From Peptococcaceae bacterium BICA1-7 (GTDB lineage: Bacteria; Bacillota; Desulfotomaculia; Desulfotomaculales; Desulfocucumaceae), in assembly GCA_000802095.1 (NCBI GenBank), contig JUEB01000011.1, positions 248,001 to 312,000 of the forward strand: a stretch of 64,000 bases of DNA. The letters run 5' to 3'. Positions 10,420-39,595 of this stretch are shown here, one piece after another. A program made the translations under genes and the position numbers. The stretch's first letter is position 1, and every line of letters starts with the position of its first letter. A model generated the notes under the pieces. That model was not told the origin of the DNA and searched no databases. It saw nothing but the letters and a program-made list of their open reading frames with translations.

Positions 10420-12342
10420 TTAAGACTCCCACATCACCTTGCCGCAGTCTCTCAGATCGTAGCCCCCCAGTTGGCGCACCGCCGACCTGAACTCTTCCAT
10501 TTCCATAACCTCAAAAAGCCTCTTTATGTAAGGGGTATTGATAAACTCAGCAGGTATGCAGAGATCATAGCGCTCTTCGGCCACGCTGACAAAGTCCAGC
10601 CCCAGGGCCGAGGCCGCCGCCCTGATGCCCATGCCTGCGTCTGCCGACCCGCTGGCCACGGCCGCCGCAACAGACATGTGGGTATACTCCTCCCTTTGGT
10701 AGCCGTTTATGCTGTCAGGGTCCAGGCCCAGCTCCTTAAGCCGGTAATCCAGAAGCACCCTGGTCCCTGCCCCCCTCTGGCGATTTATAAAGGAAACCCC
10801 CTCCCGGGGCAGGTCTCCTACTCCCTTTATCCCCTTTGGGTTGCCTTTGGCCACTATAAGCCCCTGCTCACGGTAGACCAGGTTGACCAGCACCATTTTC
10901 CGGTCTGGAAGCAGTCTTTTTATATATGAAACATTGTAATCTCCGGTGTCCTCGTCCAGCAGGTGGGTTCCGGCACAGTGGGCCTCTCCCCGCTTCAGGG
11001 CGGTGAGGCCTCCCATGCTGCCCACGTGGGCGGAGGAAAGGCTGGCCTCGGGGTGGATAAGTTTCAGGTAATTGGCCATAACATCGAGGGCAATGTCATG
11101 GCTTCCAATTATAACCGTGGTCTCCATCACCTCGTCCACGGGCCGAAGCAGCTCCACAGACACGCTTTCCCCGGCCTTAAACCCCTCAGAAAGCCTGGGC
11201 ACCCTCAGTATGCCATCGGCCCTGATCAGTGACATGATTACCCCGGCCCCCCTGGAAATGGGGGTGGCTATTACTTTGTGCCCCACCTGCCCCAGCTTTA
11301 CCCGGACAAATTCCTCAACCCCAAGGGAGGAGACAATCTTTCTTGAGGCCAGGGCCTCTATTTTGGGCCGGGATGGCTCAACGGACCCCAGCTTGCCGTA
11401 TATGACCGGCTTTACAAAAAGCTCCATGCCCAGTATGGCAGAGACCGGGTACCCCGGCACCCCCACCACCGGCTTTCCCCTGACTATGCCAAGTATTACC
11501 GGCTTACCCGGCTTTATGGCCACCCCGTGGGTATGCACCGAGCCCAGATCGCCTATAATGCCGGCGGTGAAGTCCTCCCTCCCGGCCGAGGATCCGGCGT
11601 TAACCAGCACTACATCGCACTGGTCCACCGCCTCCTCTATCTTTCTTTTGAGAAGATCATACTGGTCGGCCACTATTTCAAATCTCACCGGTTGTCCGCC
11701 CCACTCCTCAACCAGGGCGGCGAACATGCGGGTATTGTACTCTATTATGTCCCCGGACTTTAAACTGGCCCCCGGCTGCACCAGCTCGGTGCCTGTGGGC
11801 ACCAGCCCCACCACCGGCCTGGGGTGCACATAAAGCTCAGTAATTCCCCCGGCCAGCAGCCCTCCAATATCTATGGGCCGTATGCGGTGGTTGGCCGGAA
11901 CAATCATTTCGGTGGCCACTATATCCTCGCCGATCACCCTGACGTGCTGCCAGGGAGAGGCCGCTGAGATAATTTCAAAGGCCTCCTCCCCGGTAAAGTG
12001 TATATCCTCTATCATAATCACAGCGTCGCAGCCCTCGGGAAGAGGGTCCCCGGTATCAACCATGACGGCGCCCTCACCCAGGCGCAGTGCTTTGGGGGCC
12101 TTTTCCGAGGCCCCAAAGGTATCGGCCGAATTTACGGCCACGCCGTCCATGGCGCTGGCGTGGTAGTGGGGCGAGGAGTTGAGGGCATAAACCGGGGCTG
12201 CGGTAACTCTGCCGGACGATATCTCCGCCAGTATGCGCTCGGGCCTTCCCGGCTTAAGCAGCCCCTGCTCCCTTAAGGCTTCCAGATACCCCGAAACAGC
12301 CTCCTCCAGGGGGCGGTCGGAAAGATATACATCTCTTTTCAA
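10420..12342 (-). CDS. MoeA molybdenum transferase fused to a periplasmic-binding-like domain
   Basis: A 640-residue two-part protein. Residues 1-405 are MoeA-like: SPHYHASAMDGVAV near 58 (Asp-Gly loop), an EYNTRMFAAL segment near 198, the MPT-binding NAGSSAGREDFTAGII near 250, GKPVVGVPGYPVSA near 290 and a C-terminal beta-barrel (MoeA_C). Residues 415-640 resemble a PBP-like/LysR-substrate-binding domain (IGSHDIALDVMANYL near 410, GAHCAG-type loop, GADAGMGIRAAASALGLDFV near 570). MoeA inserts molybdate into adenylated molybdopterin; the extra domain may bind an oxyanion, but that is inferred. Downstream moeA is separate, separated by heptamer repeats. Confidence 0.9.
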   Translation of the reverse strand: MKRDVYLSDRPLEEAVSGYLEALREQGLLKPGRPERILAEISSGRVTAAPVYALNSSPHYHASAMDGVAVNSADTFGASEKAPKALRLGEGAVMVDTGDPLPEGCDAVIMIEDIHFTGEEAFEIISAASPWQHVRVIGEDIVATEMIVPANHRIRPIDIGGLLAGGITELYVHPRPVVGLVPTGTELVQPGASLKSGDIIEYNTRMFAALVEEWGGQPVRFEIVADQYDLLKRKIEEAVDQCDVVLVNAGSSAGREDFTAGIIGDLGSVHTHGVAIKPGKPVILGIVRGKPVVGVPGYPVSAILGMELFVKPVIYGKLGSVEPSRPKIEALASRKIVSSLGVEEFVRVKLGQVGHKVIATPISRGAGVIMSLIRADGILRVPRLSEGFKAGESVSVELLRPVDEVMETTVIIGSHDIALDVMANYLKLIHPEASLSSAHVGSMGGLTALKRGEAHCAGTHLLDEDTGDYNVSYIKRLLPDRKMVLVNLVYREQGLIVAKGNPKGIKGVGDLPREGVSFINRQRGAGTRVLLDYRLKELGLDPDSINGYQREEYTHMSVAAAVASGSADAGMGIRAAASALGLDFVSVAEERYDLCIPAEFINTPYIKRLFEVMEMEEFRSAVRQLGGYDLRDCGKVMWES

Positions 12343-12377
12343 AAAATCACCTCTTTGCTAATACTGCATTTCCTATC

Positions 12378-12450
12378 CTGTCAGAATCCAGAATCCAGAA
12401 TGTTTGCCTTCTTTTGGCAACCCGGAATTCTGAGTTCTGTATTCCGACCG
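12378..12450. repeat. short inverted heptamer-repeat pair between two moeA genes
   Basis: TCAGAAT/CCAGAAT copies (12378-12402) face GGAATTCTGAGTTCTG ending with TATTCCGACCG (12423-12450), the same family as elsewhere. Confidence 0.7.
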
Positions 12451-12473
12451 AAAATAATTACAGTATGAGCATT

Positions 12474-13721
12474 TCAAATTATCTTCACCCTGACCATGTC
12501 CCCGGCCTCCACACCCTCCATCTCGGCAGGTATTCTGGCCAGCCCGTCGGCCCTGGACATGGTGGATATGAGCCCTGACTTACCCAGCACAGGGTCGGCC
12601 ATAAGGCTTCCCCCCTGCTGCCGGAGTCCAACCCTTATAAAATCCTCCCTGCCTGCGGCAGACCTCAGGTTGCGTGTTATAACGGCGGTAACCGGGAATC
12701 CCATAAGGAACTGGTCCTCATCCGCCGGGTATTTACCCCTGCTCAAAAGAGGCTCCACCATGAGCATAAAGACCACCATGGCCGAAACCGGGTGGCCCGG
12801 CAGCCCGAAGACAGGCTTCCCGTTCACCACCGCTCCTATGGTTGGCTTTCCCGGCTTTATGGATATACCGTGAAAAAGAATTCCCGGCTTGCCAAGGTCT
12901 TCCATTACCCGGGCCGAAACATCCCTGGCCCCCACCGAGCTGCCCCCTGAAAGAAGTATTATATCGGCCCGGGCCAGCTCTTTTTCCATTACATCACGGA
13001 GGAGGCGGTAATCATCCCCCACTATGCCGCACAGCCTGGGCACCCCTCCCGCCCGGTCAGCCAGGCCGTACAGGGCATAGCTGTTCACGTCCCTTACCTG
13101 TCCTGGCCCCGGTGTGATCTGCGGTTCCACCACCTCGTCGCCGGTGGATATAACAGACACCCTTAAAGGGTCCTCCACATCAACCGAGGTAATCCCTGCG
13201 GCCGAAAGAGTCCCCAGTTCCTGGGGGCGGATAACTCTGCCCCCCCGGTATATGATCTCCCCTCCGGACAGGTCTTCCCCGGCGGCCACAATATTCTCAC
13301 CAGGCGCCACCGGCCTGGTGACACCAATGGTCCTACCGTCCAGTTCCTCGGTGTACTCCACCATCACCACGGAGTCGCAGCCCTCCGGCAGCATGCCTCC
13401 GGTAGGAATGCGCCATGCCTGGCCAGGCCGGACAGCAATATCAACCCCTTTTCCCATAAAGACCTCTCCGGCAATGTCAAGATAGGCCGGCAGGCTCTCG
13501 GAGGCCCCAAAGGTGTCCCTGGCCCTGACCGCAAAGCCGTCCATGGTGGAGCGGCCAAAGCCCGGCACATCTTCAGGGGCCTGCACATCTTCATAAAGCC
13601 GGCAGCCTATGGCCTTATTAAGGGGAACAGTGATCCTCCTGCGGGGAAGTCTCATGTGCCTCTCCAGCACCCGGCAGGCCTCTGCTACAGATAGGGCGTT
13701 AAACAGTTCCAATATTACCAT
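12474..13721 (-). CDS. moeA: molybdopterin molybdenumtransferase MoeA
   Basis: A 415-residue MoeA without extra domains. GFGRSTMDGFAVRA (about 55-68), PTGGMLPEGCDSVVMVEYTE (about 110-130), the MPT-binding LSGGSSVGARDVSARVM (about 258-275), KPGKPTIGAVVNGKPVFGLPGHPVSA (about 287-312) and a C-terminal barrel domain are all present. It ligates molybdate (or tungstate) into the dithiolene of molybdopterin. It follows the small HTH-like gene by six bases and precedes the MoeA-PBP fusion, so the three are probably one transcript. Confidence 0.93.
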   Translation of the reverse strand: MVILELFNALSVAEACRVLERHMRLPRRRITVPLNKAIGCRLYEDVQAPEDVPGFGRSTMDGFAVRARDTFGASESLPAYLDIAGEVFMGKGVDIAVRPGQAWRIPTGGMLPEGCDSVVMVEYTEELDGRTIGVTRPVAPGENIVAAGEDLSGGEIIYRGGRVIRPQELGTLSAAGITSVDVEDPLRVSVISTGDEVVEPQITPGPGQVRDVNSYALYGLADRAGGVPRLCGIVGDDYRLLRDVMEKELARADIILLSGGSSVGARDVSARVMEDLGKPGILFHGISIKPGKPTIGAVVNGKPVFGLPGHPVSAMVVFMLMVEPLLSRGKYPADEDQFLMGFPVTAVITRNLRSAAGREDFIRVGLRQQGGSLMADPVLGKSGLISTMSRADGLARIPAEMEGVEAGDMVRVKII

Positions 13722-20350: not shown

Positions 20351-21571
20351 TTACCTCTTCCCTACGGCAAGGCCAACCGGGATTACCGTCACCCTGGAGC
20401 CCCGATCTACCGGGCTGTGCCCCGCCGGCAGGTCCACCAGGGCATTGTAGCCCAGTAGTGAGCGAATCATGCTGGACTTCTGGCCCGGCAGAAGGCTTAC
20501 CACCCATCCACCAGGGCTGCAGTGAGCATACCCGCGCAGAAACCTGCGGGGGCCGCCCTTCCTGGGAAAGGCATCCAGGCTTTGGGCCTCAAATGCTCCG
20601 GGGAAGGGGTCAATACCCTGAAAGGACCTGATCACCGGGGCTGCCAGCAGGTGATAGCCCACCGCGCAGGCCGCCGGGTTTCCGGAAAGGGAAATAACCG
20701 GTACTGAATCGCAAAAGGCTACCCCGCTGTGACTGCCCGGCTTTATTTTTACTCCCCAGAATGCTACCCCGCCCCCGGACTCCCTGATCAGTCTCAGGGC
20801 GCAGTCACAGGCCCCCGAGGCCGTTCCACCGATGGTAATGACCAGGTCGGAGCTCTGTATAAGACTTTTTAGTCTGCTTTTCAAGCAGTTATAATCCTCT
20901 CCCCCGGCAGTGTCCAAAGATATCACCGTGCCTCCGTCAACAGTAGACAGAGACGCCAGAAGAGGCCCGTTGCAGTCCCGAACCTGCCCCGGCCCGGGGA
21001 CTAAGCGGGCTGGGATTACTTCACTCCCCAGGCTTAGTATAGATATCCTGGGACTGCGGTACACCGGCGCCTCATTGATGCCATAAGCGGACAAAGCTCC
21101 CACCAGTCCCGGGCCAACCCGGTCACCACGCCGGGCCAGCAGCTCTCCGGCCCCGAAGTCCTCTCCGGGAAGCTTTATATTTAAACCTTCCACGATATCA
21201 GCCTTTATGATCACCCTGTCTCCGTCAGTGACAGCCAGTTCCTGGGGCACAACCGCCCCTGTCAGGCCAGGGACCGGACCACCTGTTAATACTCCCGCTG
21301 TCTCGCCGGAAACCAAACTGCCACCCGGCATTTCCCCGCTACCGAGACGTTCCCTGACGGTAAACACATTGGTAAGGCCCACATCCTCCCGGTGGACCGC
21401 ATAGCCGTCCACCGCAGCCTGGGGATACCGCGGCAAATTCTCAGGAGCCCGGAGGTCGGCCGATAATATTCTTCCCAGGGCTTTTACCGGTGTAAGCAAT
21501 TCACCGGGGAGGGGTATCACTTTGCTTAATATAAGTTCCCGGGCTTCCTCCAACACTACATTGCTTTGCAC
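20351..21571 (-). CDS. divergent MoeA-family protein
   Basis: A 406-residue MoeA-like protein: PRYPQAAVDGYAVHRED near 48-64, LTGGPVPGLTGAVVPQE near 95, LSLGSEVIPARLVPGPGQVRDCNGPLL near 180-207, the MPT-binding motif as ITIGGTASGACDCALRLI (about 245-262) and SLSGNPAACAVGYHLL near 293. The usual GGxSxGxxD is GGTASGACD here, so the Asp is kept. It follows a second MoeA-like gene and a formate dehydrogenase. A specialised role (for example tungsten or a particular enzyme) is possible but unproven. Confidence 0.82.
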   Translation of the reverse strand: MQSNVVLEEARELILSKVIPLPGELLTPVKALGRILSADLRAPENLPRYPQAAVDGYAVHREDVGLTNVFTVRERLGSGEMPGGSLVSGETAGVLTGGPVPGLTGAVVPQELAVTDGDRVIIKADIVEGLNIKLPGEDFGAGELLARRGDRVGPGLVGALSAYGINEAPVYRSPRISILSLGSEVIPARLVPGPGQVRDCNGPLLASLSTVDGGTVISLDTAGGEDYNCLKSRLKSLIQSSDLVITIGGTASGACDCALRLIRESGGGVAFWGVKIKPGSHSGVAFCDSVPVISLSGNPAACAVGYHLLAAPVIRSFQGIDPFPGAFEAQSLDAFPRKGGPRRFLRGYAHCSPGGWVVSLLPGQKSSMIRSLLGYNALVDLPAGHSPVDRGSRVTVIPVGLAVGKR

Positions 21572-21595: not shown

Positions 21596-22621
21596 TTATA
21601 TTGTTTTGCCAAAGGAGCAGGCCGGGTACCTGCAGACCTGGCACTCCTCGCACAGCCCTCCCTGCCCGAAAGCCGCTGCCTCGTCTTTCGAGACCCGCTC
21701 CCCGGCGAATATCCGGGGTAAAATAAGGTCTAAAACAGTGGTCCGGTTAAACATTACGCAGCCGGGCAGGCCGCAAACAGGAACGTTTCCCAGGTAGGCC
21801 ATCATGAACATGGATCCCGGCAGCACCGGGGCGCCGTAAAATACCACCTCGGCCCCGGAGGCCCTGATCCCGGCAGGGGTCACATCATCAGGGTCAACAG
21901 ACATGCCTCCGGTGACCATGATCAGTTCCGCCCCCTCAGCCACCAGCCTCCTTATCTCCATGGCTATCAGGTCCGGGTCGTCGGGAACGATCACCTGCCC
22001 CAAAAGCCTCCCCCCCAGGGGTACCAGCTTTTTCTTGAGAACACTGCAGAAGCCGTCCGATATTCTGCCCTCGTATACCTCGCTGCCGGTGGTGACTATT
22101 CCGGTCCACCGGGGATGAAAGGGCTTGACGGAAATAAGGGGGCCGTGCTTGAGACAGATACCCTCGGCTTTTTCCAGCACATCCCTGGCAATAGCCAGGG
22201 GAATTACCCGGGTGCCGGCCACCACCTGCCCCCGGGTCACCACCCTGTTGCCGTGGAGGGTGGAAAAGACAACCCCCTCCAGGCTATTGACCATCTTCAA
22301 GATATCTCCATTTACTTTGAGCAGCCCGTCACAGTCCGCCTTTAAGCTTACCTTGCCCTGGTTGGGGTCATCCCGCAAAAGGCCGGGACCGGCAGCGTGG
22401 CCGGACAGCCTTAAGGCCGCCTCATCCTCATGCACCAGATCCTGGTCGGGCTCCCAGACATAGACATTCTTTTTCCCCATATCCAGCAGCCGGGGCACAT
22501 CCTCATTGCGGATAACATGCCCCTTGCGGAAGGCCCGGCCCTTTTCCAGGCCGGGCACAATTTTGGTTATGTCGTGGCAGAGCACCAGGCCCACTGCCTC
22601 TTTGACTGGAACCTCCCGCAT
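21596..22621 (-). CDS. molybdopterin-binding protein with C-terminal Cys cluster
   Basis: A 341-residue MoeA/MoCF-type protein. The MPT-binding region is GIVTTGSEVYEGRI (about 173-186) and IMVTGGMSVDPDDVTPAGIRASG (about 233-255), with GLPGCVMFNRTTVLDLILPRI near 284-304. The N-terminal 100 residues are not the usual MoeA domain. The end carries CEECQVCRYPACSFGK, four Cys that could bind a metal or Fe-S cluster. It starts one codon after the FdhA stop, so it belongs to the fdhA operon and probably serves that enzyme. Confidence 0.8.
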   Translation of the reverse strand: MREVPVKEAVGLVLCHDITKIVPGLEKGRAFRKGHVIRNEDVPRLLDMGKKNVYVWEPDQDLVHEDEAALRLSGHAAGPGLLRDDPNQGKVSLKADCDGLLKVNGDILKMVNSLEGVVFSTLHGNRVVTRGQVVAGTRVIPLAIARDVLEKAEGICLKHGPLISVKPFHPRWTGIVTTGSEVYEGRISDGFCSVLKKKLVPLGGRLLGQVIVPDDPDLIAMEIRRLVAEGAELIMVTGGMSVDPDDVTPAGIRASGAEVVFYGAPVLPGSMFMMAYLGNVPVCGLPGCVMFNRTTVLDLILPRIFAGERVSKDEAAAFGQGGLCEECQVCRYPACSFGKTI

Positions 22622-22624
22622 GAT

Positions 22625-25309
22625 CTATTCCCCCGCAACTTTTTGCATTTTAACGGCACAGACCTTGTATTCACCGGTCTTGGTCACCGGGTCCACGGCA
22701 TTGCTGGTCAGGGCGTTGGTGGGGCTGTCCTTGTAGTGGAAGGACATCCAAATCATGCCAGGAGGAACCCGGTCGGTAACACCAATTCTGGTGGTCAGCT
22801 CTCCGCGCCGGGAGGCCACCATCACCCTGTCGCCGCTTTCAACTCCCAGCCTTTCAGCATCGTAGGGATTAACCTCGGCAAACTCCTTGGACCAGATGCT
22901 CTGGATGCCGGCAGAATAAGGAGTGGTGACATTATAGTGGTACAGTATGCGGCCTGTGGACAGTAGGAACGGATATTCCCTGTCCGGCAGCTCAGCCGGA
23001 GGTATGTGATCGATGCTCTGGAACAGCCCCTTGCCCCTGGTAAAACTGGAAGCGTGCAGATAGGGGGTTCCGGGGTGATCTGCAGACGGGCAGGGCCACT
23101 GAAGCCCCTTATCCTCTATCCTTGCATAGCTGATTCCAGCGTAAGAAGGAGTGAGGGAAGCCATTTCGTTGAATATCTCTTCCGCGCTCCGGTAGTTCAT
23201 GGGATAGCCCATCCTGTCCCCTAAGGCCATAATAGACTGCCAGTTGGCCATGCCCGGAAGGGGATCTATGGCCTGGCGCACTCTCTGCACCCTGCGCTCG
23301 GTATTGGTAAAGGTCCCGTCGGTCTCGGCGAAGCTGGCGGCCGGAAGCACCACATCGGCGTATTCCGCAGTTTCGGTCATGAAGAGCTCCTGCACCACCA
23401 AAAATTCCAGCTTTTCCAATCCGGCCCGTATGTGATTGCTGTCGGGGTCGGTGAGCACCGGGTTCTCACCCAGTATATACATGGCCTTCAGCTCACCGTG
23501 ATGGGCCGCTTCAAACATCTCCGGAATCATCAGCCCGGCCTCGCCTGGCAGGGGAACGCCCCAGGCTTTCTCAAACTTGGCCCGGGAGGCCGGATCGGTT
23601 ACCTTCTGGTATCCGGTGTAAACATTGGGCAGCGCCCCCATGTCACAGGCCCCCTGCACGTTATTCTGACCCCGGATGGGATTAACCCCGGTGCCCGGGC
23701 GCCCCAGGTGGCCGGTCAGCATGGCCAGGTTGGCGACGCTCATCACATTGTTGGTGCCGCATATATGCTCGGTAATACCCAGGGTGTAGAAAAGCATGGC
23801 CCTGTCGGTGGTGGCGTACAGCCGGGCCACGGTATACAGGTCCTCCACCGGCACCCCGGTCAGGCGGGACACGTAGTCGGGGGTATACTTTTCCACTGTT
23901 TCCCTGAGAGCCTCGAAGTTTTCGGTTCTCTCCTCAATAAATGACTGGTTGTGCAGTCCTTCCTTTATAATTATGTGCATCAGCCCGTTTAAGAGGGGTA
24001 TGTCGGTTCCCGGCTGAATGCGCAGCCAGTGGTCGGCCTCCTCTGCCAGCTCGATGCGGCGCGGGTCCGCCACTATGAGCTTGGCCCCCCGCCTGGCCGC
24101 CTTCCTCATTTTATACCCTGCCACAGGGTGAGCCTCGGTGGTGTTTGTCCCGATAAGGAACATAAGCTCCACTTGCTCTAAATCGGAAAAAGAATTGGTC
24201 ATTGCGCCGCTGCCGAAAGAAGTGGCCAGACCGGCCACCGTCGGAGCGTGTCAGGTACGGGCACAATGATCAACGTTGTTAGTGCCCATCACCACCCTTA
24301 CTAATTTTTGAACCAGGTAGTTCTCCTCGTTGGTGCACCTGGCCGAGCTAAGGGCGGCAAAGGCCCCGGGGCCATACTTCTGCTTAATTTCTCCCAGTCT
24401 CCCGGCGATCACATTAAGGGCCTCATCCCAGGTGGCAGGCTCCATTTTGCCGTTTTTCTTAATATAGGGGGTATCGAGCCTCTTTTCACTGTACACAAAG
24501 TCCCAGCCGAACCGGCCCTTAATGCACAGGGAGCGCCCGTTTACCGCGCCACCGCTCTTGGTGGTGACACCCATTATCTTTCCTTCCTTGACACAGAGTT
24601 CGAAGTTACAGCCTGTGCCGCAGAAGGGGCAGGTGGTCTTTACCCTTTTCAGCTCATAGCGGCGGGCGCGCCCCTGCATCTGCTTTTCCATAAGGGCTCC
24701 GGTGGGGCATACAGCAACGCAGCTGCCGCAGAAAACGCAGTCAGACTCCAAAAGCGGAGAGTCCCCGAAGGTGGCCACCTTGGTGTCAAATCCCCGGTAG
24801 GCAAAATCAAGATTGTCTTTGCCGGTGATTTCGGCGCAGGCCCTGACGCACTTGCCGCACAGTATGCACTTGTCGGCGTCCCGCACAATGAAGGGGTTGT
24901 CTTCCTCCACCCCGTAGGCGTGGGTTTTCCCCTTATAGGGGATTTCCTTCACACCGTACCGGTAGCAGTAGTCGGCCAGGCGGCAGTCCCCCATTTTTTC
25001 GCAGGTAAGGCAGTCCTGGGGGTGGTTGGCCATTAATAGCTCCAGTATTGTCTTCCTGGCCTCGGTCACCGGTGGCGACTCAGTCCACACCACCATGCCG
25101 GAAGCTACCGCCGTCACGCAGGAGGCCGGAAGATTGCGCATCCCCTCAATTTCCACCACGCACAGCCGGCAGGCCCCGAAACGGCTCAGCTCCGGGTCGT
25201 GGCAGAGGCGTGGAATATGTATTCCCGCCTGCTCAGCAGCCTCCAGCACTGTAGTCCCCGCCGGGACCTCCACATCCCTTCCGTCGATTTTAATTCTTAT
25301 CAGGTCCAA
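22625..25309 (-). CDS. fdhA: selenocysteine formate dehydrogenase catalytic subunit (copy 1)
   Basis: One 894-residue protein read through an in-frame UGA at 24251-24253, giving Sec at residue 353 in NNVDHCART-U-HAPTVAGL, the FdhF/FdhA active-site motif. Order: [2Fe-2S] domain (CHDPELSRFGACRLC, about 36-50), His/Cys [4Fe-4S] region (CLTCEKMGDC), two ferredoxin clusters (CILCGKCVRAC, CVFCGSCVAVC), the [4Fe-4S] of the Mo/W domain (CPFCGTGC), then the bis-MGD catalytic domains. It oxidises formate or reduces CO2. A SECIS-like hairpin follows the UGA. TTG start with GGGGGAG upstream. It heads an operon with two MoeA-like genes and is preceded by riboswitch-like leaders. Confidence 0.95.
24222..24253 (-). 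promoter_or_regulatory. SECIS element of fdhA copy 1
   Basis: Twelve bases after the UGA, GTGGCC pairs with GGCCAC around the loop GGTCT. The loop and stem match the bacterial SECIS pattern (GGUCU apical loop) recognised by SelB. Confidence 0.85.
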
Positions 25310-25347
25310 TAATCATCACTCCCCCGTCAAATAATCAGCATTACAAC

Positions 25348-25373
25348 TAAAAAACCTCCAGCCCGGCTGGAGG
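25348..25373 (-). terminator. leader terminator between the second riboswitch-like RNA and fdhA
   Basis: On the minus strand CCTCCAGC pairs with GCTGGAGG (loop CGG) followed by six T. It lies about 40 bases upstream of the fdhA start, so it is an attenuator-like expression platform, not a gene end. Confidence 0.85.
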
Positions 25374-25410
25374 TAAAAACGCGACAGCAAAGGAAACCGG
25401 CATAACTCTA

Positions 25411-25490
25411 TAGCAAACCCGGCCCCCGGTGCTCTCCTTTCCAACCACGGGAGGCAAGCCCGTTTCCAGGCTTACCCAATGGCCCGCCCC
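25411..25490 (-). ncRNA. Moco-riboswitch-like RNA, copy 2 (proximal to fdhA)
   Basis: Read on the minus strand, the core (25426-25477) has GGGTAAGCC, loop GGAAAC, GGGCTTGCCTCCC, then GGTTGGAAAGGAGAGCACC. AAGCC pairs with GGCTT. The blocks GGAAAC, TGCCTCCC and GGAAAGGAGA are shared with the copy at 25640-25690. The GCCTCCC and GGAAAG blocks agree with my memory of the Moco RNA motif, which senses molybdenum or tungsten cofactor upstream of Mo-enzyme and Moco genes. A terminator follows, then fdhA. Control of formate dehydrogenase by cofactor is the likely role. Confidence 0.65.
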
Positions 25491-25542
25491 CTTGACACAG
25501 TGTTTTAGGAGGCTAAGCTCGGAGAATTTTAAATTTAAATAT

Positions 25543-25581
25543 AAAAAAGCTTTTGCCCTATGCAAAAAAGGACAAAGCTTT
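25543..25581 (-). terminator. terminator between the two riboswitch-like RNAs
   Basis: On the minus strand AAAGCTTT (plus two C) pairs with (GG plus) AAAGCTTT through two mismatches and is followed by TTTTTTAT. It places a stop point behind copy 1, so each copy has its own hairpin. Confidence 0.65.
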
Positions 25582-25629
25582 AATCAATGCAAAAATTTAA
25601 GTAAGCCCTTAGGGCAAACTTAGTTTTTA

Positions 25630-25705
25630 GCTTTTTAAAGCAGTGTTCTCCTTTCCGCAATGGGAGGCATGTCAGTTTCCCGGCATACCCTGCAGGCCCG
25701 GTAGC
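25630..25705 (-). ncRNA. Moco-riboswitch-like RNA, copy 1 (distal)
   Basis: Minus-strand core 25640-25690: GGGTATGCC, GGGAAACT, GACATGCCTCCC, then CGGAAAGGAGAACACTGC. It keeps all the conserved blocks of the downstream copy while the paired bases differ (ATGCC/GACAT versus AAGCC/GGCTT, including an A-T to T-A swap). GCAG upstream pairs with the final CTGC. Conservation of unpaired blocks with changed stems is what a functional RNA shows. Confidence 0.65.
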
Positions 25706-25817
25706 CATACCACTTAAAGCTTAGGCCATCCGGACTCGGAGATTGTATAGTTTATATTTCTGTAAATAAACCCATTTTCCTTCCCCCATTGTTTACAGCT
25801 CTAAAAAATTAATGTGC

Positions 25818-26318
25818 TTATGTGTAGTCCCGTCCGCACCTTGACCATAAAAAATCCGCCACCCCGCTGAAATCTTCCAGGCCAAATACAGGAACCCCCA
25901 CCTCCCAATTGGTGTCGCTGACTATGGCGATAAGCTCCCGGGGGTCGGTTATCAGGCTTCTGGTATGGGCTGACCGGTTTATTTCAATTTTAGGCTTATT
26001 TCCTCTTTTATAGCCCTCGGTAAGAACTATGTCCATATCCCCCATAGCCCGGGCCAGATGGTCCAGGTCCATCTCAGCCTCCACCCTGCGGAACACCGCC
26101 ACCTTTTTGGCGGTGGAAATGGCCACGGCGTCGGCCCCGGCCCGGGAGTGCCTCCAGGTGTCCTTGCCGGGGGTGTCAATCTCTATGTCATGACCATGGT
26201 GCTTTATAATCCCCACCTTTATATTCCTGGCTTTCAGCTCCGGTATAAGCTTTTCCAGAAAAGTGGTTTTTCCGGAACCGGAATAGCCCACAAAGGAAAC
26301 TACCGGTATTTTTTTCAA
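25818..26318 (-). CDS. mobB: molybdopterin-guanine dinucleotide biosynthesis adaptor MobB
   Basis: A 166-residue GTP-binding protein with Walker A GYSGSGKTTFLEKLI near 10-25, GIIKHHGHDIEIDTPGKDTWRHSRAGAD (about 36-63) and VLTEGYKRGNKPKIEI near 105-120, all typical of MobB. It helps attach GMP to molybdopterin with MobA. TTG at 26318 has GGGAGGA about ten bases upstream; an overlapping GTG at 26327 is possible. It follows the RND transporter gene by only a few bases although the functions differ. Confidence 0.9.
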   Translation of the reverse strand: MKKIPVVSFVGYSGSGKTTFLEKLIPELKARNIKVGIIKHHGHDIEIDTPGKDTWRHSRAGADAVAISTAKKVAVFRRVEAEMDLDHLARAMGDMDIVLTEGYKRGNKPKIEINRSAHTRSLITDPRELIAIVSDTNWEVGVPVFGLEDFSGVADFLWSRCGRDYT

Positions 26319-26323
26319 TGCCG

Positions 26324-29300
26324 TCACTCCTCCCCGCTCTCGCCGGCGCTTAATATATTATAACCTTTATTTTGGCGCCTGTTCTTCCCTAAAAGCCTTT
26401 CCGCCAGAAGAAACACATTGGGCACCACCAGCAGGGTGAGCACGGTAGAAAAGAAAAGGCCGCTGATTATACTTATGGCTATGGGGCGGGTCAGGCTGCT
26501 GCCCATGACAGCCATAGGGGCCAGCCCCAGTATAGCTGTGAACGAGGTCAGCAGTATGGGGCGAAGCCTTACTTTGCCGGCCCTCCGGATGGCCCCTTCC
26601 AGTGTCATGCCCTCTCTCAGCCCCACTTCAATAAAATCAACCAGAACTATGCCATTGCGCACCACTATGCCGGACAGGCTGACTATGCCCAATAAAGCCA
26701 TAAAGCCCAGAGGGTTGCCGGTAATGAAGAGGCCCAGAACAGCCCCCGAAACGGCCAGGAAAATAGACAGGAAAACTATGGCCGGCTTGGTCAGGGAATA
26801 AAACTGCATGGCAATAATGATATAAATAAGAAGTCCCACCACCAGCGAAAGCTTTCCGATGCTGGCAAAGGCCGTTTTACGCTCCTCATCCTCCCCACCG
26901 TACTCAATGCGGTAGCCCGGCGGTCTGGGCACATTCTCAATCTCCCCTGAGGCCTCCCGCAGTATATCGTCGGCCAGGGTACCGTCAGTATAGGCTCTGA
27001 CCGTTATCACTCTCTCCATATTTCGCCGGTTGATGGTTCCCGAATTCCATCCGGCGTCAAGGGATGCCACCTGGCTTAAGGGCAGAACCGACCCGCTCTT
27101 CCAGGAAGGCACCCATACCCTGGAAAGACCCTCCAGACTTGCTTCATTGGCCTTCCCGGTGCGCAAAACCACAGGATAAAGATCGTTCCCCTCACGGTAG
27201 TCGCTTACCTTTAATCCGTCCACCGCCATGCGGACCGAGTAGGCTATATCCTCTTCGGCCACCCCGTAGCGGTAAGTCAGCTCGGGGGAAGAGTTTACCT
27301 TTATGGTGTATGTGTCCAGGCCCATATCATCATGTACGTTGACTGTGCCCGGAGTCTTTTTTAAAATATAGGACACTTCGTCGGCCATTTCCTTTAGCCT
27401 GGACAGATCATCGCCGCAAATCCTTACAGCGATTGGGGCTCCCACCAGGGGCCCCTGCTCCAGCTCCCGGACGTCCACAGTGGTTCCCGGAAAAGCTCCC
27501 GAAAGCTCCTTCCGAAGCTCATCCACCAGGTGGCCCGTGGTATGGGGACTCCCTTTTTCCACCACCACTACCAGCTGGGCCACGGTTTCACCACGGGCGA
27601 AGGACACCTCGTTATAATAAAATTTGGGAGCCCCCCGCCCCACATAGGTGTGCACCGCCTCCACACCCGGCTTTTGGGCTGCTTTCCCGGCCGCCTCCCG
27701 GGCCACCTCTGCTGTCTGGTACAGGCTGTAGCCCCTGGGGGTGGTGATGTCCACTATAAACTGGTCCCTTTCGGCATAGGGGAAAAACTGAACACCTACC
27801 AGAGGCAGGAGCCCCAGGGCGCCGACACTTATCAAAACAGCAGCCGCCACTGTAAGTCCCGGGCGCTTCAAAGAGTATGCCAGCCTGGCCTCGTACCATA
27901 CACTGAGCCTTTCCAGAAGGGGAGCTAAAAAACCATCCCTGAATGGGCTCCGGCCCGTACTCCCACGCTTACCCCCCCTGACCACCCAGAGGCGCAGGGT
28001 GGGGGTAAGCCAGAGGGAGACAATCATTGAGGCCAGCATTGTCACCGAAACCACCAACGGCAGAGCATAGATGAAATTGCCTATATCACCGGGAATAAAC
28101 ATAAGCGGGGCAAAGGCCGACACCGTGGCCACAGTGGCAGTAAGAATAGGCACAGCCACCTCCCTGGTGCCAGTTACGGAAGCGGCATAACCTCCCTTTC
28201 CCAGGGCCAGGTGCCGCTCAATGTTGTCGTTTACCACGATGGCATCGTCCACCAGTATACCCAGGGCTATGATAAGTGCCCCGATGGTTACCTGGTGAAG
28301 GCTTATGCCCATCCAGGACAGGGGACCAAAGCCAATGGCGGCCGATACCGGAATGGAAAGGGACACTATCACAGCAGTACGCCAGTTCAGGCCGGCAAGG
28401 CATACCAGAAGAACCATCACCATACCTATGATTAGTTCCCGCCACAATTGTGAAAAATTACTGTCCACGCTGGCGGACTGATTAAAAACTATGGCTGTCT
28501 CCACCCCGGGGGGAAGGTTCCTTTTTAAGCCGGCCATCAGGGACTGCAGATCTTTTTCCAAGTCAGACACTGAGTATTCATCTTTTATAAAAATCGCCAG
28601 GGCCACACCGGGCCTGCCGTTTGTTTCCACCAGCACATCGGTCCGGGCCGGAGCCCTTTCCACGGTGGCCACGTCCCTTACCCTGACCGGAGCGCCGCCG
28701 GACTGGGAGTAGATAATAGTGTCCGCTATCTCCTCCACTGATCTGTATTCACCGGAAGACTCCACCAGTAAGCCCATCTGGCCTTCTCTCAGTATTCCTC
28801 CAGGAATATTGACATTTCTTTTTTGGAGGGCGTCCGCCAGCTGGGCCCAGCTGAGCCCACGGGCAGCCAGGGCGGCCGGGTCGGTAATGACCTGCACCTG
28901 ATTGTCGGGAATGCCGGCCGTTTCAATCCTTTCCACACCCGGCAGCTGTTTAATTTCATCTTCCCAGCTTTCCGCCGTTTCCCTCAGTGAGGCCGGTGAC
29001 ACCCCCGGAGGGGCTAAAAGGTGCACGATCAATAAAGAGGTCTTATTGAGCTCATCCTGGACCTCAGGCACATCAGCCCCCGGGGGAAGCCTGGCCCCGG
29101 CCTCGTTTACCTTTTGGCGCAGCTTGTCCCAATTCTCTTCCGGGCCGGCGGTATCTTTAAGCTTTACGATTATGCTGGAAACTCCATTGTAAGAGCTCGA
29201 TTCGATCACCGACACGTCTTCCAGCTCATTAATGCTCTCTTCCAGGGGCTTGGTAACCAGCGCCTCCACCTGGTCGGGGGCGGCCCCGGGGTATAGGGTC

Positions 29301-33363: not shown

Positions 33364-36054
33364 CTAAGCTATCTTCTCAACTTTAACGGAGCAGACCTTG
33401 AACTCAGGTATCTTTGATATGGAGTCCCGGGCCGGGTTGGTCAGCTTGTTGATGGCCACCTCGGGGAAGTGGAAGGAGGTGAACACCAGCCCTTCGGAAA
33501 CAATGTCGGTCAGGCGTGCCATAACCTCCACACTGCCCCGGCGGGAGGTCACCCTCACCATGTCCCCGTCCTGGACGTTTAGCCTCGCGGCGTCGGCAGG
33601 GTTGATTTCCAGATACTCCTTGCTATAGTGCACTTCCAGGGCGCCGGTGCGCATGGTCATGGTTCCGGTGTGATAGTGGGCGCGCCTGCGTCCGGTGCTG
33701 AGCACCAGCGGATACTGCTCGTCAGGTGTTTCAGCCGGCGGCACGTGTTCCACCGGGTGGAACTTGCCCAGGCCCCGGGAGAATTTGCCCGCATGCAGCA
33801 CCGGGGTTCCCGGGTGGTCGGCGGTGGGACAGGGCCACTGTATGCCGCCCTTTTCCAGCCGCTCATAGGATATTCCGGCGTAAGAGGGTGTCACCGAGGC
33901 AATCTCCTTCATTATATCGGCCGGGGAATCATATTTCATTGTATAGCCCAGGGCACAGGCCAGATCACAGATAATCCGCCAGTCGGGCCTGGAGTTACCC
34001 ACCGGCTCAACGGCCTTGCGGATAAGCTGCACCCTGCGCTCGGTATTGCTGAAGGTACCGTCCTTCTCGGCAAAGCTGGTGGCAGGCAGCACCACATCGG
34101 CCAGCCGGGCAGTCTCGGTGAGGAAAATATCCTGGACTACCAAAAACTCCAGCTTTTTAAGGGAGTGGGCGGCGTGATCAGCATCGGGGTCCGAAAGCAC
34201 CGGGTTTTCACCCATAATATACATGCCCTTTATGGCGCCCTTGTCGGCTCCCTCAAGAAGCTCGCCCACCGTAAGGCCCGGCTTGGCGGGAATAGGGCCG
34301 CAGCCCCAGGCCGCCTCGAACTTGGCCCTGGCCTCATCGGAAGCAACAGGCTGGTAGCCTGTTAAAACGTTGGGCAGTGCGCCCACATCGCAGGCCCCCT
34401 GGACGTTGTTCTGACCCCTTAGGGGGTTTACCCCGCTGTGGGGCTTGCCTATCTGACCGCACAGCATGGCCAGGTTGGCTATGGCAAACACGTTGTGGGT
34501 GCCGCAGATATGCTGAGTAATGCCCATGGTATACAGTATGGTGGCGTTTTTAGCCCCGGCGTACTGCCTGGCCACTTCCCTGATGGCGGCGGCGGGAACA
34601 CCGGTGATACCCTCGGTATATTCCGGGGTATACCTGGCCACAACACTCTTTAGGGCCTCGAAGTCCTCGGTTCTTTCAGCCACAAACTCTTTATTATAAA
34701 GGTCCTCGCTAATTATTACATTGGCCAGCCCGTTTAACAGGGCAATGTCGGAGCCTGATTTAATCTGCAGGTGGCTCTTGGCCAGTTCGGCCACCTCTGT
34801 TTTTCTGGGGTCGGCCACCACCAGTATAGAGCCCTGCCGGACCGCCTTTTTAACCTGCAGCCCGATAATTGGGTGGGACTCAGTGGTGTTGGTGCCTATG
34901 GCCAGTATAAAGTCAGCCCCGGCGATGTCCCCGATGGGGTTGGTCATCGCCCCGCTCCCAAAAGCTGCCGCCAGACCGGCGACGGTGGGAGCGTGTCAGA
35001 GACGGGCGCAGTGGTCGATATTGTTGGTACCGATCACCGCGCGGGCAAATTTGCTCAGCAAATAGTTTTCTTCATTGGTGCAGCGGGCCGAGGACAGTAT
35101 CCCGATAGAATCAGGACCTGAATTGTCCCGGAGGGAGCCCAGCTTTTCAGCCACCAGGCTTAAGGCCTCATCCCAGCCGGCCTCGACGAACTGCCCGTTC
35201 TTTTTGATGAGCGGTGTTGTAAGGCGGTCCTGGTGGTGTATAAACCCAAAGCCAAAGCGGCCCTTTATACATAGTGCCCTCCCGTTGACATCCCCGTCGC
35301 AGGAGGTTACTCCCACCACTTTGCCGTCCTTTACATTCAGGTCGAAGCTACAGCCGGTGCCGCAGTAGGGGCAGGTTGTGTTAACCTTTTTAACCTCCCA
35401 GGACCGGGCTTTTGCCCGCAGGGCCTTCTCCTGAAGCGCCCCGGTGGGGCAGACCGCCACGCAGTTGCCGCAAAAAACGCAGCTGGATTCGTCCAGGGCG
35501 GTATCCATGGCCGGGGCCACCTTGGTGTTAAAGCCCCGGTAGGTAAAGTCCACCACGTTATTGCCCTGTATTTCTGCACAGGCCCTTATGCACTTGCCGC
35601 ACAGTATACATTTGTTCATATCCCTTGTTATAAAGGGATTGTTCTCCTCTAAGGGATATTGGTGCACCGCGCCCTGGAAGACGCCGCCGTCCTTTACACC
35701 GTACATATAGGCGTAGTCCTGCAGCCGGCAGTCCCCGTTTTTGCCGCATGTAAGGCAATCCATGGGGTGATTGGCCAGCAACAGCTCAATTATTGTTTTC
35801 CTGGCCTCCATTACAGCGGGGGACTCGGTTTCCACCACCATGCCCTCCGCAGCGGCGGTTGCGCAGGATATAACGAGGCTACGGGCCCCCTTGACATCTA
35901 CCACGCACATGCGGCAGGATCCCACACTGGTAAGCTCAGGGTCATGGCACAGGGTAGGTATAAAGACACCCAGCTGCCTGGCCGCGTCCAGTATAGTGCT
36001 GCCCTGGGGAACAGTCACCTGCAGGCCGTTTATTAATAGAGTGACATCAGCCAC
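33364..36054 (-). CDS. fdhA: selenocysteine formate dehydrogenase catalytic subunit (copy 2)
   Basis: An 896-residue protein with Sec at residue 353 (UGA at 34996-34998) in NNIDHCARL-U-HAPTVAGL. Domains: [2Fe-2S] (CHDPELTSVGSCRMC), CLTCGKNGDC, CILCGKCIRAC and CVFCGNCVAVC ferredoxin clusters, CPYCGTGCSFDL at the Mo/W domain, then the catalytic and C-terminal cofactor domains. It is closely similar to copy 1. GTG start with AAAGGAGG upstream. It is last in an operon after nuoE, nuoF and a truncated FdhA-like gene, so it probably couples formate to NAD(H), and perhaps ferredoxin by electron bifurcation (inference). Confidence 0.95.
34967..34998 (-). promoter_or_regulatory. SECIS element of fdhA copy 2
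   Basis: Twelve bases after the UGA, GTCGCC pairs with GGCGGC (one G-U) around GGTCT. Stem bases differ from copy 1 while the loop is identical, supporting a conserved SECIS. Confidence 0.85.
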
Positions 36055-36089: not shown

Positions 36090-37022
36090 CTACTTGCCCT
36101 CTAACTTCTTCATTTTATCAAGCACACCCTCCAGGCCCAGGGCGTCAGCCCAGGACACTTTGACGAACTCCCCGTCTTTTTTAAGCTCCGGAGCCTGGGG
36201 ATCATCACAGTACAGGAGCTCCAGCCCCAGCCTGCCCTTCAGGCAAAGTGGCCTGCCCGGGCCGGGTGAGGCGGCGGTTACTCCCACTATCTTGCCGTCC
36301 TTAACATTAAGGTTAAACTGGCAGCCGCTGTCACAGAAGGTGCAGGTGACCGGCTTCTTGTCATATTCCCATGACCTGCCTTTACCTGCCATGCGCTTGT
36401 AGGTCAGCGCCCCCACCGGGCATACCGCCAGGCAGCGCCCGCAGTATACGCAGTCGGACTCTCCCAGGGGGGTGTCCATGGGAGGAGCAATTTTTGTATC
36501 AAAACCCCTATAGGCGAAATCTATAACGGCCCTTCCCTCAACCTGTGCGCAGGTCCTTACACACCTGCCGCAGAGTATGCACTTGTTCAGGTCCCTGACA
36601 ATATAGGGGTTGCTGTCGTCCAGGGGATAGGAGTGCTGCCTTCCCTCAAATCCCGACCCCTTCACGCCATAACGGAAGCAGTAATCCTGCAGGCGGCAGT
36701 CCCCGTTTTTCTCACAGGTCAGGCAGTCCATGGGGTGGTTGGCCAGTAAAAGCTCCAGTATGGTACTGCGGGCCTCAACCACGGCCGGGGACTCGGTCTC
36801 CACCACCATCCCCTCGGTGGCCTCAGTGACACAGGAGGCCGGCAGGTTGCGCATCCCCGGTATTTCCACCACGCAGATCCGGCAGGCCCCAAAGCGGGGT
36901 ATTTCCGGGTCATGGCAGAAGGTGGGAATGAATATGCCGGCTTGGGCCGCAGCGTCCAGCACCGTGGTTCCCCTGGGCACGGTTACCTTTTTACCGTTTA
37001 TGGTCAGTGTAACACTTGCCAT
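36090..37022 (-). CDS. FdhA-like iron-sulfur subunit lacking the catalytic domain
   Basis: A 310-residue protein matching the N-terminal third of the neighbouring FdhA: [2Fe-2S] (CHDPEIPRFGACRIC), CLTCEKNGDC, CILCGRCVRTC, CVYCGRCLAVC and the CTFCDSGC cluster of the Mo domain, then RPLCLKGRLGLELL. It ends with a short non-homologous tail (EGVLDKMKKLEGK) and has no Sec or bis-MGD domain. It resembles the electron-input/HydA- or NuoG-like subunit of NAD-linked complexes. Likely it bridges NuoF and FdhA. ATG with GGGGAG upstream; 18 bases after nuoF. Confidence 0.88.
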   Translation of the reverse strand: MASVTLTINGKKVTVPRGTTVLDAAAQAGIFIPTFCHDPEIPRFGACRICVVEIPGMRNLPASCVTEATEGMVVETESPAVVEARSTILELLLANHPMDCLTCEKNGDCRLQDYCFRYGVKGSGFEGRQHSYPLDDSNPYIVRDLNKCILCGRCVRTCAQVEGRAVIDFAYRGFDTKIAPPMDTPLGESDCVYCGRCLAVCPVGALTYKRMAGKGRSWEYDKKPVTCTFCDSGCQFNLNVKDGKIVGVTAASPGPGRPLCLKGRLGLELLYCDDPQAPELKKDGEFVKVSWADALGLEGVLDKMKKLEGK

Positions 37023-37040
37023 TTATATCACTCCCCTCAC

Positions 37041-38993
37041 CTAAGCCCGGATTATGGCTTCGAATTTGCAGCCGCCCACACAGCTTCCGCATTTAATGCA
37101 CTTGGCCGGGTCAATAACATGAGGCAGCTTTTTCTCACCGGTGATGGCCTCAGCGGGGCAGTTCTTGAGGCACTTGCCGCAGCCCTTGCACTTTTCGGGG
37201 TCAATAACATAGGTTAATAGGGCTGCGCAGGCCCCGGCAGGGCATTTCTTATCCTGAATGTGAGCAATGTATTCATCCTTGAAATAGCGGAGAGTTGAAA
37301 GAATAGGATTGGGACAGGTCTGCCCAAGGCCGCACAGGGCGGTGTTCTTAACCACCCGGGCCAGGCGCTCCAGACTGTCGATATCCTCCATTTTTCCTTC
37401 TCCGGCGCAAATGCGGGTTAATATCTCCAGCATCCTGGTGGTGCCTTCCCGGCAGGGAGTGCACTTACCGCAGGACTCAGACTGGGTGAAGGTCAAAAAA
37501 TACCGGGCTATATCCACCATGCAGGTGGTTTCGTCCATTACCACCAGCCCTCCGGAGCCCATCATGGCCCCGGCCGAGGTGAGTGAGTCGTAATCCACCG
37601 GCAGGTCAAGCAGTTCATCGGGCAGGCAGCCTCCGGAGGGACCGCCTATCTGCACGGCCTTAAACTTCTTGCCTCCTGGAATGCCTCCGCCTATGGCGAA
37701 TAAAATGTCTCTCATGCTGATGCCCATGGGAACTTCCACCAGCCCGGTATTGTTCACCTTACCGGTAAGGGCAAATATCTTGGTGCCCTTGCTCTTCTCG
37801 GTGCCCATGGAGGCATACCAGGTCCCGCCGTTCCGTAGTATCTGCGGCACGTTGGCAAAGGTTTCCACATTATTAAGACAGGTGGGCTTGCCCCACAGGC
37901 CGCTGTTGGCCGGGAAGGGAGGCCTTACCCTGGGCATCCCCCGGTTGCCCTCTATGGATGTTAAAAGGGCGGTTTCCTCGCCGCACACAAAGGCGCCGGC
38001 CCCAGCCTTTATTTTAAGGTGGAAGTTAAAGCCGGTGTTCAGTATATTGTCACCCAGCACTCCGTATTCCTCGGCCTGGGCAATGGCTATCTTAAGCCGC
38101 TCAATAGCCAGGGGATACTCTGCCCGGACGTATATATAGCCCTCATCGGCGCCCACAGCATAGCCGCAGGTCATCATTCCCTCCAGCACCGCATGGGGGT
38201 CTCCCTCCAGCACGCTGCGGTCCATAAAAGCCCCGGGGTCGCCCTCGTCAGCGTTGCAGACCACGTACTTTTTATCTCCCTGAGCCTGGCGGACAAAGCC
38301 CCACTTCATGCCTGTGGGGAATCCACCGCCGCCCCTGCCGCGCAGCCCGGAGGTCTTGACCTCCTCCACCACCTGGTCGGGGGTTAATTCAAAGAGGGCC
38401 CTGACAAAGCCTGCGTAACCGTCATTGGCTATATAGTCGGATATTTCCTCGGCGTTGATGTGCCCGCAGTTATGCAGCACCAGGCGCTTCTGCAGGGCGT
38501 AGAAGGGAACATTCTCATAGGTTTTGGCCGGCTCACCGGTATTGGGGTCTTTATAGAGCAGCCGTTCCACAATCTCGGACCCGACCAGGTCCTTCGCCAC
38601 TATTTCGGCCACATCCTCTTCCTGAACCTGGGTGTAGAAAGTTTTTAAGGGCTCAATGATCATCAGCGGCCCCTGCTCGCAAAAGCCGTGGCAGCCGGTT
38701 ATTTTTACAGCTACCTTGTCAGTTAGCCCGTTGGCCGCCAGTTCCTCTTCCAGCTTGTTGACCAGCTTGCCGGACCCTGAGGAGGTGCAGCCGGTTCCGG
38801 CGCAGATAAGTACCTGGCGTTTGGGTGATCCGGCCGGGAGATTAATGTCCGCCAGTATCTCCGCCCTTTTCTGTTTGCAAGCCTCATCCTGGTGGCAGAT
38901 GGGCCCTTCCTTACGGCACTTGATATAATCCTTGCAAGGAGAGGCCGGTGTATGCTTACACTTATCACAACACTTGTCCATCAAGTTTTTCAT
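37041..38993 (-). CDS. NuoF/HydB-like NAD(H)-binding subunit
   Basis: A 650-residue flavoprotein. A Cys-rich N-terminus (CCDKCKHTPASPCKDYIKC, residues 8-26) precedes a thioredoxin-like [2Fe-2S] domain (ICAGTGCTSSG near 62; TGCHGFCEQGP near 100). Then come the FMN/NAD site (GLRGRGGGGFPTGMKWG, about 213-229), the SLBB domain, the N3-type [4Fe-4S] (SCGKCTPCREGT, about 515) and two C-terminal [4Fe-4S] motifs (CKGCGKCLKNCP, CIKCGSCVGGC). This architecture is that of the diaphorase subunit of NAD-linked hydrogenases and formate dehydrogenases. It is 15 bases after nuoE. Confidence 0.92.
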   Translation of the reverse strand: MKNLMDKCCDKCKHTPASPCKDYIKCRKEGPICHQDEACKQKRAEILADINLPAGSPKRQVLICAGTGCTSSGSGKLVNKLEEELAANGLTDKVAVKITGCHGFCEQGPLMIIEPLKTFYTQVQEEDVAEIVAKDLVGSEIVERLLYKDPNTGEPAKTYENVPFYALQKRLVLHNCGHINAEEISDYIANDGYAGFVRALFELTPDQVVEEVKTSGLRGRGGGGFPTGMKWGFVRQAQGDKKYVVCNADEGDPGAFMDRSVLEGDPHAVLEGMMTCGYAVGADEGYIYVRAEYPLAIERLKIAIAQAEEYGVLGDNILNTGFNFHLKIKAGAGAFVCGEETALLTSIEGNRGMPRVRPPFPANSGLWGKPTCLNNVETFANVPQILRNGGTWYASMGTEKSKGTKIFALTGKVNNTGLVEVPMGISMRDILFAIGGGIPGGKKFKAVQIGGPSGGCLPDELLDLPVDYDSLTSAGAMMGSGGLVVMDETTCMVDIARYFLTFTQSESCGKCTPCREGTTRMLEILTRICAGEGKMEDIDSLERLARVVKNTALCGLGQTCPNPILSTLRYFKDEYIAHIQDKKCPAGACAALLTYVIDPEKCKGCGKCLKNCPAEAITGEKKLPHVIDPAKCIKCGSCVGGCKFEAIIRA

Positions 38994-39008
38994 TCCACGT
39001 CCTCCTCC

Positions 39009-39494
39009 CTACTCGTATTTTTCAATGGTTGCTACCGCTTTGTCCGGGGTCAGCTTTCCGTGAGTATTGTCGTTTACCATCATAACCGGAGCCAGACCGC
39101 AGGCCCCCAGGCAGGCCACCGTCTCCAGGGTGTAGCGCAAATCTTCGGTGGTGCCGTTTTTGGCTACTCCCAGCTTTTTGGAGACCCCGTCAAACACCTT
39201 GGACGCCCCCCGCACGTGGCAGGCAGTTCCCTGGCAGACGCGGATAATGTTGCGTCCTCTGGGCTTTAAGTGAAACTGGGAGTAAAAGGTAACCACTCCG
39301 AAGGTCTTACTGAAGGGTATGCCCATCCCGCCGGAAATCTGCTGCATTACCTCCTTGGGCAGGTAGCCGTATATGTCCTGGGCCTCCTGCAGCAAAGGTA
39401 TCAGCCCTCCCTTTACCGCCATGTACTTTGAGATGGCAGCCTGAAGGGCTTCCTGCTTTGTACTCTCGTCAACGTGTCCACATTTGCAAGTCAA
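39009..39494 (-). CDS. NuoE/HydC-like [2Fe-2S] subunit
   Basis: A 161-residue thioredoxin-fold protein with CQGTACHVRGA (about 88-98) and CLGACGLAPVMMVND (about 128-142), the four Cys ligands of the [2Fe-2S] cluster. It carries electrons beside NuoF. The start is TTG at 39494 (MTCKCGHVDES) with AGAGGGGG upstream; the extra CxC at its N-terminus is unusual. First gene of the formate dehydrogenase operon. Confidence 0.9.
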   Translation of the reverse strand: MTCKCGHVDESTKQEALQAAISKYMAVKGGLIPLLQEAQDIYGYLPKEVMQQISGGMGIPFSKTFGVVTFYSQFHLKPRGRNIIRVCQGTACHVRGASKVFDGVSKKLGVAKNGTTEDLRYTLETVACLGACGLAPVMMVNDNTHGKLTPDKAVATIEKYE

Positions 39495-39595
39495 AACTAT
39501 TAACCCCCTCTCAAATTCTCTCCCTACAACTTTATTAACTAAACAACCCCCAAAAGGAAGCTTTCCCGGATTTTTCACGGGCGCCCCCTTTAAAA

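Follow-up and report, generated by a model that had tools for sequence, protein, structure and literature searches.

The 64,000-nucleotide stretch of DNA from Peptococcaceae bacterium BICA1-7 analysed here (the window) carries two RNA elements of the same family in front of a single gene, the formate dehydrogenase gene fdhA, and thereby raises the question of what two sensors in series would do that one would not. A preliminary description of the locus had offered a steeper response and the sensing of two related ligands, both of which are possible. Overall, the leader of the fdhA-moeA-like-moeA operon very probably consists of two complete, independent terminating Moco-family riboswitches in series, both acting as OFF switches, for which we infer ligand binding, the OFF direction and the series logic. 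Regarding the predicted ligands, a tungsten cofactor for the distal unit with a molybdenum cofactor for the proximal unit, and the same ligand sensed twice, are about equally likely.

Two Moco RNA aptamers ahead of fdhA

A cmscan search of the whole window against all Rfam families yielded three matches, namely one tRNA and two to RF01055 (Moco RNA). The distal aptamer (unit 1; 25632-25753, minus strand) scored 72.3 bits (E 1.6e-15) and the proximal aptamer (unit 2; 25418-25536, minus strand) 73.6 bits (E 7e-16), i.e. about twice the RF01055 gathering score of 36 bits, which excludes a chance match. Both matches spanned model positions 1-135 with the exception of P3, and unit 1 reached 100 bits with the model R1, a covariance model built in this analysis. 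The tandem Moco-riboswitch-like RNAs of the preliminary description, which had suggested this Rfam scan, are thus two full-length members of the family.

In the cmscan alignments, both copies possessed P1, P2, P4 and P5, together with the core motifs CUCCGAG, GGAAAC, GCCUCCC and GGAAAGGAG and a GAAA tetraloop. The sequence blocks that had been seen to occur twice (25426-25477 and 25640-25690, minus strand) correspond to P4, P5 and the 3' strand of P1, and the stem bases do differ between the two copies, as had been remarked, with pairing preserved. Among 32 relatives, two-sided changes were found at 15 of the 20 predicted pairs. Neither window copy has a P3 between P2 and P4, the absence that characterizes the tungsten-cofactor subclass. 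The two copies are distinguished by their P5 loop, which is CAUUGC in unit 1 ('-UGY' type, with a loop ending in UGC or UGU) and CGUGGUU in unit 2 (class B, with a U-ending loop, mostly CGUGGUU). A recent local duplication was not retained as the origin of the window copies, which the tree keeps apart, although such an origin survives the AU test (p = 0.27); in G014 the corresponding duplication was rejected (p = 0.043).

The fdhA operon and its genomic context

The fdhA gene (22625-25309, minus strand; TIGR01591, 859 bits for a cut-off of 666) encodes a formate dehydrogenase alpha subunit of 894 aa that is read through one in-frame UGA, at residue 353 (Sec353; 24251-24253, minus strand), and its orthologues also have a single UGA. 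A SECIS-like hairpin lies at this codon (24198-24256, minus strand; RF01989, SECIS_3, 54.4 bits, E 2.7e-12, the gathering score being higher at 63), and selA is present elsewhere in the genome. Ordinary annotation would split fdhA at the UGA. The operon continues with a moeA-like gene harbouring a MoCF_biosynth domain (21596-22621, minus strand), which also lies 3' of fdhA in relatives, and with a moeA/glp-like gene (20351-21571, minus strand) assigned from domain matches and relatives; the order fdhA, moeA-like, moeA was found again in relatives. On its upstream side, the leader adjoins mobB (25818-26327, minus strand; PF03205, 158 bits; TIGR00176, 148.7 bits).

The genome contains one modA, five AFOR_N genes and one tupA-like gene (scoring under the curated TupA cut-off), which makes the use of both metals probable. 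Either tungsten or molybdenum can serve in the formate dehydrogenases of anaerobes of this kind. One further Moco RNA pair was found in the source genome, ahead of the tupA-like gene (L005:10712-11306, minus strand), with both copies P3-less and bearing CAUUGC loops; the 352 nt separating them include an inverted-repeat-like stretch (ttttagg...cacagagg / cctctgtg...aaaaagg).

Several other genes of the window belong to the same functions. A second fdhA-like gene (33364-36054, minus strand), 58% identical to the first and also read through a UGA, neighbours NuoF/NuoE-like genes (36090-40321, minus strand) and a 5-FTHF cyclo-ligase gene. Its leader is devoid of Moco RNA, so that one of the two formate dehydrogenases lies under the tandem switch. 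Two more MoeA homologues, one of them fused to a PBP-like domain (PF12727), are encoded at 10420-13721 (minus strand), so that the window has three genes of the MoeA type in addition to the moeA-like gene.

Terminators and predicted switching mechanism

Terminator 1 (25543-25581, minus strand), identified in the sequence, consists of the hairpin AAAGCUUUGUCC...GGGCAAAAGCUUU (25581-25546; -12.9 kcal/mol) and a T run (25548-25543). Terminator 2 (25348-25374, minus strand), identified from the sequence, a consensus terminator scan and folding, consists of ACCUCCAGCCGGGCUGGAGGU (hairpin at 25374-25354) and a T run (25353-25348). These coordinates agree with the hairpins and T runs first reported after each copy, and fdhA indeed starts directly behind terminator 2. 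The consensus scanner listed terminator 2 alone, since the loop of terminator 1 (~9-11 nt) is above the scanner limit. A CCUCC...GGAGG terminator was found again ahead of fdhA in relatives. The promoter search 5' of unit 1 returned nothing convincing, and a candidate second promoter ahead of unit 2 (TTTGCA-17-TATATT, 25566-25538) was discarded as one match against a chance expectation of 1.6.

The alternative antiterminator pairing that the preliminary description had proposed to look for was predicted by folding in each unit, and proved unit-specific. In unit 1, the switching segment comprises P5 and the 3' strand of P1 (CCUCCCAUUGCGGAAAGGAG; 25648-25667, minus strand) and is predicted, from folding, platform swap and comparative complementarity, to pair with terminator 1, in its 5' strand and loop, as an antiterminator. 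The switching segment of unit 2 (CCUCCCGUGGUUGGAAAGGAG; 25434-25454, minus strand), predicted from folding and platform swap, would form a duplex of -22.9 kcal/mol, with its GGUUGG complementary to the CCAGCC of terminator 2. In equilibrium folding, which differs from co-transcriptional folding, terminator probability rose from 0.28 in the free RNA to 0.99 with the aptamer held in the Rfam fold for unit 1, and from 0.13 to 0.99 for unit 2. When the platforms were swapped, the free fold gave a terminator probability of 0.98 for aptamer 2 with platform 1 and of 0.74 for aptamer 1 with platform 2. As antitermination was lost (unit 1) or weakened (unit 2) by the swap, each antiterminator fits its own platform, a match predicted to be strict for unit 1 and partial for unit 2. 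The claim that each copy has its own terminator holds, and by prediction extends to the fit between each aptamer and its terminator. When both units were folded as one strand, terminator 2 paired with unit 1, ~370 nt upstream; this long-range pairing, seen in one fold, is probably an artefact, and was not retained as a cross-unit antiterminator.

The same fit was found beyond the window. Among the Moco RNAs with a strong terminator (n = 182), switching segments paired better with their own terminator (-17.3 kcal/mol) than with others (-14.8 kcal/mol; 0/2000 permutations). As kinship inflates this result, the test was redone on a non-redundant set of 35 dissimilar sequences from relatives, giving -16.0 kcal/mol for own and -14.0 kcal/mol for other terminators (0/5000 shuffles as good). 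Across 71 relatives, holding the aptamer increased terminator probability by over 0.3 in 27 cases, and a decrease of that size was never seen; the probability changed little in the other 44, mostly as their free fold already prefers the terminator, and for these the folding model does not show switching.

Aptamer sequence is thus predicted, with support from comparison, to be shared with an antiterminator that excludes the terminator, as expected of a riboswitch, and both units are predicted to be independent OFF switches, as a NOR gate demands. In the unliganded RNA, P5 and the 3' strand of P1 would pair with part of the terminator, resulting in antitermination, while cofactor binding would lock P5 and P1 in the aptamer, allowing the terminator to form and transcription to stop. 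With two such units in series, RNA polymerase would get to fdhA only after passing both terminators, and the operon would be made only when none of the sensed cofactors is in excess. End-product repression of this kind makes sense given the moeA metal-insertion genes in the operon.

Moco RNAs in the fdhA leaders of relatives

Tandem Moco RNA pairs were common in the relatives searched first. The comparison was based on 42 orthologous fdhA leaders with at least one Moco RNA (62 aptamers in total), selected at ~70% or more fdhA identity, plus L036 at 67%. The '-UGY' type (29 aptamers) lay 158-1340 nt 5' of fdhA and class B (24 aptamers) 67-375 nt 5' of it, these leader counts not being independent events. 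In the first broad set, all P3-less aptamers with a CGUGGUU loop (9/9) were found ahead of fdhA. A P3-bearing aptamer occupied the proximal slot in six genomes, and P3 stems of proximal aptamers showed two-sided changes (e.g. CGGUU/AACCG, CGGUU/AGCCG and UGG/CCA); beyond the aligned examples, P3 status was assigned from length and from the alignment to the model.

Fourteen leaders contained both types. Nine of them, including the window, had a '-UGY' aptamer followed by class B, two had two '-UGY' aptamers followed by a U-type, and three (G172, G296, G431) had a P3-less aptamer followed by a P3-bearing one. The '-UGY' or plain P3-less aptamer was thus distal and the second type proximal in 14/14, and the reversed order was not found among these 14 mixed leaders. 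Out of the 53 neighbouring Moco RNA pairs collected, only three mixed P3-less and P3-bearing aptamers, all of them in fdhA leaders.

Other arrangements were also observed. In L035 (660-880), a CCUCCAGCC...GGCUGGAG terminator, preceded only by P1-like arms, lies 3' of the second Moco RNA and ahead of fdhA. The candidate third aptamer at this place (5 bits, E 0.11) is at most a remnant, and the terminator is perhaps the trace of a decayed third riboswitch. A third type of aptamer (GCCUUCC...GAAAAGG or GAGAAGG), in whose P5 a C-G pair is replaced by U-A in a compensatory manner, occurs in L126, L128, L131, L136 and L143, mostly as the later tandem copy. Within the class of the window, 22-27 Moco RNAs were counted per genome in G032, G055, G056, G096 and G097, more than the 15 reported in 2008 for S. 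wolfei (PMC2408646).

One cofactor or two

Discrimination between molybdenum and tungsten cofactors by Moco RNAs has since 2008 been based largely on the correlation between P3 and gene context, the presence of P3 correlating with molybdenum and its lack with tungsten in the original description of the motif by Regulski et al. (2008; PMC2408646). This published rule would make both copies in the window tungsten-cofactor RNAs. Only one of the 110 Moco RNAs from the class of the window in the first broad set has a P3, so the rule must be incomplete for this class. It is also loose on the side of gene context, as in this clade a P3-less '-UGY' aptamer lies ahead of a xanthine-dehydrogenase/aldehyde-oxidase family gene (L124), members of which are usually molybdenum enzymes, and P3-less RNAs with other loops also precede a molybdenum hydroxylase family gene (L134).

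The reading that comes nearest to an even chance, while falling short of it, is that both units sense the same ligand, which would be the tungsten cofactor by the published rule, the series giving a tighter, steeper and more digital repression. It is consistent with the lack of P3 in both window copies, with the proposal made by Regulski et al. for a P3-less triple (PMC2408646), with the same-ligand classification of Moco and Wco tandems in a 2022 census (PMC9481103), and with the tandem of like units ahead of the tupA-like gene in the source genome. However, duplication for steepness would yield like copies, whereas the fdhA copies differ in type and keep a fixed order, and three fdhA leaders combine P3-less and P3-bearing aptamers.

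Slightly less likely, the second reading is a two-input NOR gate, in which the distal unit would sense the tungsten cofactor and the proximal unit the molybdenum cofactor, either being enough to shut the operon. The two lineages in fixed order and the P3-bearing proximal aptamers of six genomes, three of which have a P3-less distal unit, indirectly favour the involvement of two ligands. Loops of the '-UGY' type, as in the distal unit, were found in 0/70 P3-bearing and 74/151 P3-less RNAs, and this type lies ahead of tupA-like genes in five genomes and of an AFOR-family gene (L133), both tungsten-related. As a marker of molybdenum versus tungsten ligands, the P5 loop was nonetheless rejected and kept as a type label only, because '-UGY' is mostly limited to the class of the window, most P3-less RNAs outside it having U-rich loops like P3-bearing ones. 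Concerning the proximal unit, P4 identity between class B and the P3-bearing proximal aptamers (mean = 0.78) was as high as within class B (0.76), compared to 0.62 with the distal '-UGY' fdhA aptamers and 0.58 and 0.61 with background P3-bearing and P3-less aptamers, respectively, and random sets of six matched 0.78 in 0/1000 draws. Judged from these sequences, the simplest reading is a single proximal lineage with both P3-bearing and P3-less members. In the aptamer tree (91 columns), the labels clustered far above chance, but the deep forks stayed unresolved (AU test for class B and P3-bearing aptamers as one clade, p = 0.46), and the proximal-lineage reading thus rests on P4, slot and order. 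Against a NOR gate speak the lack of P3 in the window's own proximal unit, the P3-less aptamers ahead of molybdenum hydroxylase family genes, and the fact that the P5 differences may merely reflect the fit to different terminators. It is somewhat doubtful that the gate operates with a proximal aptamer without P3, whether lost or never gained, that is still molybdenum-specific; if it does, G172, G296 and G431 would show the same gate directly.

A historical origin of the series is unlikely as the whole explanation. The distal unit would once have governed both fdhD and fdhA, with the proximal unit acting on fdhA alone, and the loss of the intervening fdhD would have left a series not selected for any special logic. 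The fdhD gene does lie between the distal and proximal Moco RNAs in G014 and G053, and G081 and G489 have a similar unit spacing of ~1 kb, but short, gene-free spacings also occur (the window, G002, G140, G398 and the G172 group). At L319:2237-3022 (plus strand) and L143:1643-2347 (plus strand), fdhD between the two Moco RNAs amounts to two control points in one operon. The historical and logical readings are compatible, and the pair may represent two control points of one operon that became joined.

That one copy has lost sensing and only the other regulates fdhA is highly improbable, as both copies score twice the gathering score, conserve the core and have working predicted alternative pairings, in spite of the long tree branch of the proximal copy (0.41) and of the third aptamer that L035 seems to have lost while keeping its terminator.

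With two sensors on one RNA ahead of one gene, the fdhA leaders offer an internal comparison. If the two units answer to different metals, they would form a molybdenum/tungsten logic gate missing from the 2022 table of tandem gates, and a response of both to one metal would weaken the P3 rule. Either way, the answer bears on the choice of metal by cells whose formate dehydrogenases can use tungsten or molybdenum.

Comparison with known systems

Both window copies resemble the described RF01055 riboswitches in sequence and structure, intrinsic terminators and association with molybdenum- or tungsten-cofactor genes, as well as in the OFF direction, which is predicted here and was reported for the E. 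coli Moco RNA (PMC2408646). They differ in that two types stand in fixed order before an operon for a selenocysteine-containing formate dehydrogenase. Both terminator-linked Moco RNAs in series and the idea of a steeper response were already published in 2008, when tandems were described in Syntrophomonas wolfei and Geobacter metallireducens, along with a terminator-bearing P3-less triple that was interpreted as more digital control (PMC2408646). The S. wolfei triple, which has terminators after its first two aptamers, shares serial P3-less aptamers with their own terminators, but precedes an operon for MPT synthesis and transport and was described as one kind, whereas the window combines two lineages ahead of fdhA.

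The 2022 census reported 13 doublets and two triplets of Moco tandems, with separate expression platforms as in the window. It classed the tandems of Moco and of Wco riboswitches as same-ligand, and no Moco/Wco pair figures among its tabulated two-input gates (PMC9481103), while the window units differ in type and constitute a candidate two-input pair. Relative to the open-licence literature compared, the fixed order of the two lineages, the fdhA leaders that pair P3-less with P3-bearing aptamers and the unit-specific antiterminators are new, and a tungsten/molybdenum-cofactor NOR gate is plausible from the sequences. The closest logical counterpart is the SAM-I/AdoCbl NOR gate ahead of metE in Bacillus clausii (cited in PMC9481103), where two serial OFF switches likewise make either ligand sufficient; its ligands are proven and chemically dissimilar, whereas the two candidate ligands of the window differ only in their metal.
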